Below, piece by piece: positions 27,328 through 62,492 of a DNA stretch of 64,000 nucleotides. Within the stretch, counting starts at the first letter, position 1. Every line of letters starts with the position of its first letter. The position numbers and the translations under genes were made by a program. Origin of the DNA: Spirochaetota bacterium (GTDB lineage: Bacteria > Spirochaetota > Brachyspiria > Brachyspirales > JACRPF01); assembly GCA_016214035.1 (NCBI GenBank), contig JACRPF010000019.1, forward strand, positions 53,926 through 117,925, written 5' to 3'. Below the pieces are notes generated by a model. That model was not told the DNA's origin and made no database searches. It saw nothing but the letters and a program-made list of their open reading frames with translations.

Positions 27328-27349
27328 CAGCGTCCCAAGGATGAACCAC

Positions 27350-27763
27350 ATGAAAACAATCATCACACTTCTTGCACTCAGCCTCATGGCGCCGCTCGCC
27401 GCACAGGAAACGGACATTGCGCTTATCGTGAATAAGGCGATAGCGGTTGAAAAAATATCCGCACAGGATGTCCGTGATATTTTCACCGCGAAAAAGCGGT
27501 CGTGGGACGACAGCACGGCGGTAAAGATTGTCATACAGTCGAAGAACCTGCCGTCATTCTTTGAAAAGTTTCTCGGCATGAGTGACTCATCGTTCAAAAA
27601 GCTCTGGCTGAAACTTACGCTTGAAGGCAAGGCGAAAGCGCCGACCGATCTCACCTCGGACACGGAGGTTCTCAAGTATGTCGCTGAAAATAGCGGCGCC
27701 ATAGGATATGTGAAAGCGGCGGCATTGACCGATGCGGTTAAACGTGTCAGTGTAACTGAATAG
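27350..27763 (+). CDS. Small PstS-like periplasmic phosphate-binding-domain protein, copy 1
   Basis: Signal peptide; [40 protein letters not shown]...[12 protein letters not shown] resembles truncated PBP-like family. Confidence 0.78.
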   Translation: MKTIITLLALSLMAPLAAQETDIALIVNKAIAVEKISAQDVRDIFTAKKRSWDDSTAVKIVIQSKNLPSFFEKFLGMSDSSFKKLWLKLTLEGKAKAPTDLTSDTEVLKYVAENSGAIGYVKAAALTDAVKRVSVTE

Positions 27764-27803
27764 CGGAACAACGGTCAGAGGAATTTAAAACAACGGAGCT
27801 GTT

Positions 27804-28832
27804 ATGAAAAAGAACATTGTCTGCGTATTGGTTGCATGTGTTTTTACCGCATCTGTTTTCGGGATAAAATTTGAATCAGGAGATTCAGCGTTCGAGATTA
27901 AGGGATATTTATCGGCTGAAATCAGTTATCTTTCCCAGCCGTATGCTTCCGGCATGCAGAAATTTTATGCCGGCCTCGGGTATTCGTCGCTTATCTTCGA
28001 TCTCTGGCAGGGCAGTAAGTTCCACATGCGCTATTCGATGGCCGTACGCTCGCAATTCCCCAATGTATTCGGCACCTCGAACAATATCTGGATACCGGGC
28101 ATGGAAGCGTACGGCGAGTTCATCCCCAACGATTTTTTATCGATAAAAGCGGGCCAGGTGCTCACACCGATCGGCTATCTGATGCAGATACATCTCATGC
28201 CGGCGCTGTACCCGCAGGTGGGTCCGTCGGCCTTTTTTGAGGAGGAGATACTGCCGTATAATACGACCATCGACATCAAGATGACATTCAAACTCCCGGG
28301 CAATGCGACGCTGCCGGTCAATATTTTCGGCGGAAAGCCGATTGCCAATTACGGCGCCCGTGTCGCTCAGCCGGCTCAGGGTGAGATTGAGATCAATAAT
28401 TTAAATCTGTTCGGCGCCCGTGTAGCCTATGAGCTCGGCGAATACTTTAAGGCCGGCATGAGCTATGTCATCAGCGAAGATTTTTCCGTCAGACTGCAGG
28501 TCCCGTATATCGTGTTTGAGAATGATTATCTGCTTATCGTCGCCGAAGGCTGCAATAAAATTTTCGTTGCATCAAGCGGCTATAATCAGTCCGAACGGTC
28601 CACGGACGTGCTCATCGGCGTTCATCTCGGCAGATTCACCCCGTATGCCGACGCGGAATACATGGAAGCGCCGCTCATCGGCAAGATTGTACGCCGTTAC
28701 AGCGCCGGAGTCGACTTTGCCGTATATGACAACCTGCGGCTGAAAGCGCAGTTCGATTACCGCGATGTGAACAACGGCAGCTATCGGGCGAAACCGCTGG
28801 TGCTCCGGACATCAGCGGTATTTAATTTTTAA
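27804..28832 (+). CDS. Outer-membrane beta-barrel (porin-like) protein, copy 2
   Basis: Paralogue of copy 1 (IKFESGDSAFEIKGYLSAEISYLS...GYLMQIHLMPALYPQVGPS); terminal Phe. Confidence 0.75.
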   Translation: MKKNIVCVLVACVFTASVFGIKFESGDSAFEIKGYLSAEISYLSQPYASGMQKFYAGLGYSSLIFDLWQGSKFHMRYSMAVRSQFPNVFGTSNNIWIPGMEAYGEFIPNDFLSIKAGQVLTPIGYLMQIHLMPALYPQVGPSAFFEEEILPYNTTIDIKMTFKLPGNATLPVNIFGGKPIANYGARVAQPAQGEIEINNLNLFGARVAYELGEYFKAGMSYVISEDFSVRLQVPYIVFENDYLLIVAEGCNKIFVASSGYNQSERSTDVLIGVHLGRFTPYADAEYMEAPLIGKIVRRYSAGVDFAVYDNLRLKAQFDYRDVNNGSYRAKPLVLRTSAVFNF

Positions 28833-28853
28833 CCGCAGAAAAGGATGCAGCAC

Positions 28854-29276
28854 ATGAAAACAAACCTCATACTCATCGCGCTTGCGGCGCTGTGCGGCAT
28901 GATATCACTCAGCGCTCAGGAAGCCGACATTGCACTTATCGTCAATAAGGCGATAGCGGTTGACAAAATATCCTCGCAGGATGTCCGTGATATTTTCACC
29001 GCGAAAAAGCGGTCATGGGACGACAGCACGGCGGTAAAAATTGTCATTCAGTCGAAGAACCTGCCGTCGTTTTTTGAAAAGTTTCTCGGGATGAGCGATT
29101 CATCGTTCAAGAAACTCTGGCTCAAACTTACGCTCGAAGGCAAGGCGAAAGCGCCGACCGATCTCACCTCGGACACGGAGGTGCTCAAATATGTTGCGGA
29201 AAATGCCGGCGCCATCGGGTATGTGAAAGCAGCAGCACTGACCGACGCGGTCAAACGCGTCGCTGTGACAGAATAA
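28854..29276 (+). CDS. Small PstS-like periplasmic phosphate-binding-domain protein, copy 2
   Basis: About 5 substitutions relative to copy 1 over the mature region (by eye). Confidence 0.78.
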
Positions 29277-37011: not shown

Positions 37012-38223
37012 ATGAAAAAGATTGGTTTTGCCATCATCGGCGCGGGAGCGATAGCGAAATCGCACGCTGATGCGATAATCGCCTGCCCGGGTGCACACCT
37101 AGAATCGATTGTATCCGATAATACAGAGCAGGCATCACGGCTTGCCGGGACATATAAAACATCGTACGACAATACGCTGGAACAGGCGCTGTCACGGAGT
37201 GCGGTAGATGCCGTCTGCATCTGCACGCCGAGTTTTCTTCATGCGGATATGGCGGTCACGGCGCTTCATGCCGGACGTCACGTGCTCGTTGAAAAACCGA
37301 TGGATATTTCGGTCGTCAAGGCGGATGCGATGGTTGCCGCAGCGGAACGTTCGGGTAAAACGCTCGGAGTCGTGTTTCAGAACCGCACAAGCGATGCGAT
37401 ACGCGGCGTGAAAGCCGCCATAACCGCGGGCAGGCTCGGACGCATCGTCGCATGCTCGGCACGTGTGAACTGGTTTCGTTCCGAAAAATATTATGCTGCG
37501 TCGGACTGGCGCGGTACCTGGGAAAAGGACGGCGGCGGCGCGGCAATGAACCAGGGCATACATTACATCGACATGCTCATCCATCTGGTAGGTGATATCG
37601 ATTCCGTCACGGCGGAATCAGATACGCTCCATCATGCGGTGGAAACAGAAGATACGATAGCGGCGGTTATCCGGTTTGCGAACGGCGCCATCGGTACGTT
37701 CCAGGCAGCAACGGCGGCGTTCCCGGGACTTCCGCCGGTTATTGAAGTGAGCGGGACCAAGGGCAGCGTCATCATACAGAACGGCGCGGTACGTTTTCGC
37801 TACTACGCGGATGAACATGGCGCCGATGTCGGCGACTACGGGCTTGAAGGGAATGCGTCGGCTCCGTATTTCACGAACGATGCGACGGCGACTGCATACA
37901 GCGGCGGACATGCGTTTGTCATCAATGATTTTGTCACCGCGATACACACCGGCCGCGAGCCGTTCGTCAGCGGTGTTGAAGGCAGAAAATCGCTTGCGGC
38001 GGTGGACGCGATGTACCGTTCCGCGCGGGAAGGCAGCAACATAATCCATTTTAATTCGCCATTACAAACGCGCAGGATGCGCGTCGAACGCCGAAGAGTA
38101 AATGCCATCGCGCGGAAAGCAAGCGCAAGCGGTGCCGGATGCACCGCGAGAGCGACCTCGCACATAGCTATAACACAATGCAATACTGACGAAAATATTC
38201 AGTCTACAATAACCGTAGCTTAA
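37012..38223 (+). CDS. Gfo/Idh/MocA family oxidoreductase with aberrant C-terminal tail encoded by a repeat-containing segment
   Basis: IGFAIIGAGAIAKSHADAI...HVLVEKPMDIS; SD aaggag; family-like domain appears to end near 38050. Confidence 0.88.
   Translation: MKKIGFAIIGAGAIAKSHADAIIACPGAHLESIVSDNTEQASRLAGTYKTSYDNTLEQALSRSAVDAVCICTPSFLHADMAVTALHAGRHVLVEKPMDISVVKADAMVAAAERSGKTLGVVFQNRTSDAIRGVKAAITAGRLGRIVACSARVNWFRSEKYYAASDWRGTWEKDGGGAAMNQGIHYIDMLIHLVGDIDSVTAESDTLHHAVETEDTIAAVIRFANGAIGTFQAATAAFPGLPPVIEVSGTKGSVIIQNGAVRFRYYADEHGADVGDYGLEGNASAPYFTNDATATAYSGGHAFVINDFVTAIHTGREPFVSGVEGRKSLAAVDAMYRSAREGSNIIHFNSPLQTRRMRVERRRVNAIARKASASGAGCTARATSHIAITQCNTDENIQSTITVA
38122..38156. repeat. Dispersed hairpin repeat, copy A (agcgcaagcggtgccggatgcaccgcgagagcgac)
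   Basis: 33/35 identical to copy B; stem gcggtg/caccgc, loop ccggatg. Confidence 0.85.
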
Positions 38224-62308: not shown

Positions 62309-62397
62309 TCTATTATCGGAAGCGGGGGGGATAAACTGGAGCACAGGGCTATTCAGATGACTTTATAAATTTAAACATCGACACGCTCGAAAATAGC

Positions 62398-62414
62398 TCG
62401 CACACGATGTGCGA
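62398..62414. repeat. Perfect 7-bp hairpin (tcgcaca cga tgtgcga) upstream of repeat copy B
   Basis: Seen directly. Confidence 0.9.
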
Positions 62415-62441
62415 CATATGGCAAGACACCTGTGCTCCGCT

Positions 62442-62476
62442 AGCGCAAGCGATGCCGGATGCATCGCGAGAGCGAC
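62442..62476. repeat. Dispersed hairpin repeat, copy B (agcgcaagcgatgccggatgcatcgcgagagcgac)
   Basis: 33/35 identical to copy A; stem gcgatg/catcgc, loop ccggatg. Confidence 0.85.
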
Positions 62477-62492
62477 ACAATAGTGTTATCGG

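Follow-up and report, generated by a model that had tools for sequence, protein, structure and literature searches.

The window analysed here, a stretch of 64,000 nucleotides (C17:53926-117925), belongs to a genome of 5,214,743 bases in 22 contigs and harbours two copies of a structured element (Table 1). Copy 1 is located where a Gfo/Idh/MocA-type gene (window 37012-38223) ends, and the open frame of this gene traverses the copy. As the Pfam domain of this gene ends around position 38038 and the frame continues through the element, the final 60-70 codons appear to be element-derived. Copy 2 is antisense, with an M16 peptidase gene on one side and an AIR-synthase-related gene on the other. Elsewhere in the window (27337-29172), gene segments of 300 nt are duplicated with 88% and 74% identity at a spacing of about 1.5 kb.

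The sequence-only reading had described a 35-nt hairpin repeat in two copies that differ only by a compensatory base-pair change. Both 35-mers are present where it placed them, with 33 of 35 positions identical, and none of 100 shuffled windows contained even one such match. The differing sites (38132/38144, G-C; 62452/62464, A-T) indeed lie opposite one another in a stem of 7 bp closed by the loop CGGAT. The additional hairpin reported upstream of each copy is equally real and corresponds to hairpin P2 of the same element. The 35-nt hairpin is thus genuine, but the unit is larger than was proposed: it is a composite structure of 147 nt (about 185 nt with its tail), of which the long-range stem P1 had been overlooked. 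In folding calculations both window copies adopt the element fold individually, as RNA and as DNA.

Table 1. Coordinates of the two element copies in the window and of their structural parts.
Feature	Window position	Strand	Basis
Element copy 1 (covariance-model match, 147 positions)	38018..38161	+	G000:C17:91943-92086, 80.3 bits, E 1.3e-15
Copy 1, P1 5' strand TTCCGCGCGG	38019..38028	+	Fold of copy 1
Copy 1, P1 3' strand, partner of 38019-38028	38108..38117	+	Fold
Copy 1, P2 hairpin ACGCGCA-GGA-TGCGCGT	38068..38084	+	Fold
Copy 1, P3/P4, CGC AA (GCGGTGC CGGAT GCACCGC) GAGA GCG, hairpin of the 35-nt repeat	38124..38154	+	Sequence, fold
Element copy 2 (covariance-model match)	62336..62481	+	G000:C17:116261-116406, 110.2 bits, E 8.3e-23
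Copy 2, P1 5' strand GGAGCACAGG, compensatory variant of AGCGCGGG	62338..62347	+	Fold
Copy 2, P1 3' strand CCTGTGCTCC	62429..62438	+	Fold
Copy 2, P2 hairpin TCGCACA-CGA-TGTGCGA	62398..62414	+	Fold
Copy 2, P3/P4, CGC AA (GCGATGC CGGAT GCATCGC) GAGA GCG	62444..62473	+	Sequence, fold

Alignment of 30 copies with their flanks shows that the 35-nt repeat constitutes P4, the hairpin at the 3' side of a composite that measures roughly 150-190 bases overall. P1 (consensus TAGCGCGGGA ... TCCCGCGCTA) is a long-range stem that encloses about 90-95 nt, including the P2 hairpin (consensus CGCGCA-TGGA-TGCGCG). It is followed by P3/P4 (consensus AGCGCNAGCG...YGGAN...CGCGARAGCGAC) and by a weakly conserved 3' tail of about 45 nt that ends near GAGAAGTAATA. 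Extra hairpins, the loops of which are mostly GGA, are inserted in P4 of about 20 copies and in P2 of two. The extra-hairpin module of P4 was also searched for as a free-standing repeat; this possibility was rejected, with seven of the nine places found falling within known copies. The remaining two (L291, G000:C20:100541-100570, and L285, G000:C14:198857-198886) are GGA-loop modules that resemble those of the long copies and lie outside the 92 listed. In L080, L086, L099 and others, the sequence 15-45 nt past the element contains an A+T-rich near-palindrome, ATATTTTGC...GCAAAATAT, a candidate promoter or protein-binding site.

The element is abundant in this genome. The 35-mer alone occurs 46 times at three or fewer mismatches (zero for a reversed control pattern), and a covariance model, with which up to 150 candidates from the genome were scored, identifies at least 92 element copies with E < 1e-5. 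These are dispersed at a density of about one per 57 kb, without arrays. No pair of copies exceeds 87% identity and the median identity to the nearest copy is 67%, so that nothing points to current movement. Retention of the structure long after the copies separated suggests a function, or an effect of repair, acting on resident copies.

Outside this genome the distribution is patchy. In the nearest relative available, from another genus of the same family, one match is good (55 bits) and has a similar tail, and a second match is weaker. Its best copy (L077:1501-1700, on G001:C112) has the tail ATATTTTGCACATTGTGCGTAAAATATGCAAAGTAATAG in common with our element, and ATAGCATAGC flanks it on both sides. 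The covariance model gave no convincing match in about 390 genomes of the phylum, and a 32-bit match in the distant genome G152 is probably due to chance. A strict pattern gave zero matches in other GTDB contigs and zero in viral contigs. A wider distribution was also considered and rejected: the many matches to a looser pattern in unrelated taxa score weakly with the covariance model (23 bits at best), and those that were inspected resemble coding or serine/alanine-repeat sequence.

Further copies and compensatory changes within them were what the structural claim of the sequence-only reading depended on. It withstands this test: there are many further copies, and the great majority of the changes in their stems compensate one another. 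The first 30 copies were chosen by P4 alone and their alignment was not fitted to the covariance model, so that covariation in P1 and P2 constitutes an independent test. In this set both stems covary and the signal is strongest in P1, where seven of nine pairs show two-sided changes, and the structure exceeds all 500 shuffles and all slid controls. The alignment of the 93 model matches is fitted to the covariance model and hence biased towards its structure; here, 95.0% of the cells are paired (93% for the P1 columns, 94.5% for the P2 columns) and 17 of 25 pairs show two-sided changes, with 227 two-sided cells compared with a mean of 54.5 after shuffling and at most 28 in slid controls. On the basis of this covariation and of the copy number, a protein-coding or chance origin of the repeat was rejected.

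Across the stems, the non-Watson-Crick cells comprise 29 G.T and 27 A.C, which amounts to no wobble bias. Parsimony on a tree of the unpaired columns gives a similar picture, with about 159 replacements of one Watson-Crick pair by a different one and 28 G.T and 26 A.C events; these counts are rough, as the tree was built from 88 noisy columns. Selection on a single RNA strand would favour G.T over A.C. The near-equality of the two therefore argues for a constraint that acts at the DNA level or through repair, more than on RNA.

Many copies begin at the stop codon of a gene. Genes were called with a simple codon-usage gene finder and 88 copies were classified by their neighbours. For 61 copies a gene on the same strand lies upstream, and in 31 of the 61 its stop codon coincides exactly with element positions 4-6 (20 TAG, eight TAA and three TGA). 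In a further 13 copies the upstream gene ends between -8 and +5. The stop codon forms part of P1, and the stem matches the stop in use: TGATGCGGGC is found with GCCCGCATC in L124, and TGACACGG with CCGTGTCA in L157.

In seven of 93 copies, 10-12 nt of the copy's own 5' end recur as a direct repeat 48-54 nt past the end of the model, where 0.06 (repeat-free flanks) or 0.6 (flanks of all other copies) repeats of at least 10 nt are expected; this comparison uses filled sites alone. The repeats of L085, L090 and L098 contain the stop codon. Some take in bases 5' of the consensus, namely GTCC in L085 and ATCA in L126, which is to be expected of target duplications. Most copies lack such a repeat. 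Furthermore, two of the seven cases, L126 and L137, continue into partial second copies, and L093 represents a genuine tandem pair, so that target duplication is favoured but not proven.

Three Y1 transposase genes are present in the genome and are weakly to clearly RAYT-like, the RAYT model scoring above its cut-off only for the gene on C8. These genes do not establish the link to a RAYT-type transposase that the sequence-only reading had proposed to check. On C12 (L092:1857-2443), an element copy in the opposite orientation directly adjoins the 5' end of a RAYT-like Y1 gene, which may be missing its native start. The genes on C1 and C8 have no element nearby. Since none of the three is flanked on both sides, a REPtron (a RAYT gene between two inverted REPs) was rejected. 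Two other sources of mobility were dismissed in searches that detected their positive controls: no RVT_1 match was obtained in this genome or in that of the relative (group II intron, retron or DGR), and no PF07282 zinc-ribbon match in this genome (TnpB omega-RNA element).

The element shares several traits with the REP/RAYT system, namely dispersed GC-rich palindromes 3' of genes, compensated stems, ends that often give a TAG stop and the presence of RAYT-like genes in the same genome. REPs often supply TAG stop codons and sit downstream of genes (PMC3733652), and their palindromes are maintained through complementary mutations (PMC2817692). However, GTAG and CGTC REPs are single hairpins of 20-40 bp with a GTAG or CGTC tag, often arranged as inverted dimers, whereas the element is a fixed composite of 147 nt. 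The base before its TAG is mostly A (49 of 93; G in 15 of 93) and the stem opened at TAG closes about 90-95 nt away. In a CGTC REP, the tag CGTC (or TGTC) precedes a stem beginning with AT (PMC3733652); the complement of P4 starts with TGTCGCTYTCGC, in which a tag-like TGTC is followed by GC. In addition, the element is mostly in the sense of the upstream gene and flanks no RAYT gene on both sides.

YPAL/RU-2 of Yersinia is about 168 bp long, carries inverted repeats internally, lacks TA ends, is accompanied by target duplications and is intergenic (PMC2229807). By this description it resembles the element, in which the direct repeats of seven of 93 copies may likewise be target duplications. 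Its duplications vary from 3 to 26 bp, compared with direct repeats of 10-12 nt here, and GGA-loop hairpins and a stop-codon-containing stem are not among the features given for YPAL in the parts of that report consulted (PMC2229807). More generally, the element is dispersed, non-coding, shorter than 250 bp, palindromic, mostly intergenic and patchy among relatives, as are miniature palindromic elements. IS200/IS605-derived miniature elements presumably resemble it in having a pair of subterminal hairpins whose loops are alike, and an internal strand able to pair with the target in the flank. They differ in that this genome contains no TnpB zinc-ribbon gene and in that direct repeats of 10-12 nt are atypical for them. 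As the element fits the REP/YPAL kind but lacks the REP tags and the flanked RAYT gene, it looks like a new, distinct family of that kind, set apart from YPAL by description.

On balance we think it probable that these are non-autonomous, REP/YPAL-like miniature palindromic DNA elements that were spread in this lineage by an enzyme inserting them at gene ends, in line with the earlier suggestion of a selected structure of REP-like or mobile palindromic type. The patchy distribution, the 31 of 61 starts on stop codons and the seven direct repeats argue for this reading; the low identity between copies, the scarcity of direct repeats and the lack of a transposase flanked on both sides argue against it. 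IS200/IS605-type enzymes normally act without duplications of 10-12 nt, which also counts against it. We infer mobility, recognition of a folded single strand and the participation of an enzyme, for which a Y1/HUH transposase of the RAYT type is the best candidate. Such an enzyme would recognize the folded strand via the shared GGA-loop hairpins and would insert the element where genes end. In most cases a short target including the stop codon would be duplicated or used, which would leave the upstream gene intact. Mobilization would belong to the past, and copies now fixed at stop codons may also influence the mRNA, be it its termination, its stability or the stalling of ribosomes on it. Ribosome stalling has been reported for REPs that lie no more than 15 nt from a stop codon (PMC12306157).

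A more specific version, which we regard as quite unlikely, is that the 3' strand of P1 serves as a guide: it would pair with a target spanning the stop codon, where the element would insert with target duplication. Covariation of P1 with the TAG, TAA and TGA stops would then be a record of guide-target matching. Were this true, the element would amount to an insertion system that guides itself and spares genes.

The main rival to the mobile-element reading is a family of RNAs that bind CsrA, in which transcripts or mRNA 3' ends would present two to five GGA-loop hairpins and serve as a distributed sponge for CsrA or regulate at 3' ends. We consider this unlikely, despite several attractive points. 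GGA occupies 150 of 227 hairpin loops within copies compared with 62 of 1195 in the flanks, and it recurs in the extra hairpins of the long copies. The usual P2 loop, A-YGGA-T, resembles CsrA sites. A csrA gene is present (C11:207312, E 3e-23), and 43 of the 88 classified copies lie in sense between two genes on the same strand. The element also resembles RNAs of the CsrB/RsmZ and TwoAYGGAY types, which have several hairpins with GGA (AYGGAY) loops. Unlike these, it has no Rfam match, either in the window at the gathering threshold or for five full copies at E <= 5 (tRNA excepted), shows no excess of G.T over A.C and occurs in dozens of dispersed copies. Fourteen of these, including window copy 2, have both neighbours on the opposite strand. 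Moreover, the P2 loop carries CGA instead of GGA in 15 of 93 copies, terminator-like T runs precede L100, L106, L123 and L135, and a tRNA-like 3' end precedes L132.

Alternatively, the covariation could be mostly mutational, with fold-back template switching during replication repeatedly copying one arm onto the other and so restoring the palindromes of an old, inert repeat. In its favour, nearly every change replaces one Watson-Crick pair by a different one, and intermediates are few and symmetric. Against it, P1 is the most changed stem although its arms are about 90-95 nt apart, and conservation extends to the GGA loops and to GCGARAGCGAC in the 3' part, which the copying of arms would leave unprotected; we judge this explanation improbable. 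A cassette for site-specific recombination akin to integron attC sites (a folded single strand beside stop codons) would account for structure being conserved rather than sequence, for the adjacent stops and for the direct repeats that flank some copies, but it is highly improbable given that inspection of the ends, both in the consensus and in the copies that were read, showed no RYYYAAC/GTTRRRY boxes, that the copies do not form arrays and that the partner strand of P1 is internal instead of at the 3' end.

The element is an unusually clean example of a dispersed bacterial repeat: a composite fold, including a stop-codon stem with arms about 90 nt apart, has been kept by compensation in about 92 diverged copies. 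The missing wobble bias helps to separate constraint at the DNA level from constraint at the RNA level, a difficult question where REP-type repeats are concerned. Both gene-sparing insertion and effects on translation become testable through the location at stop codons.
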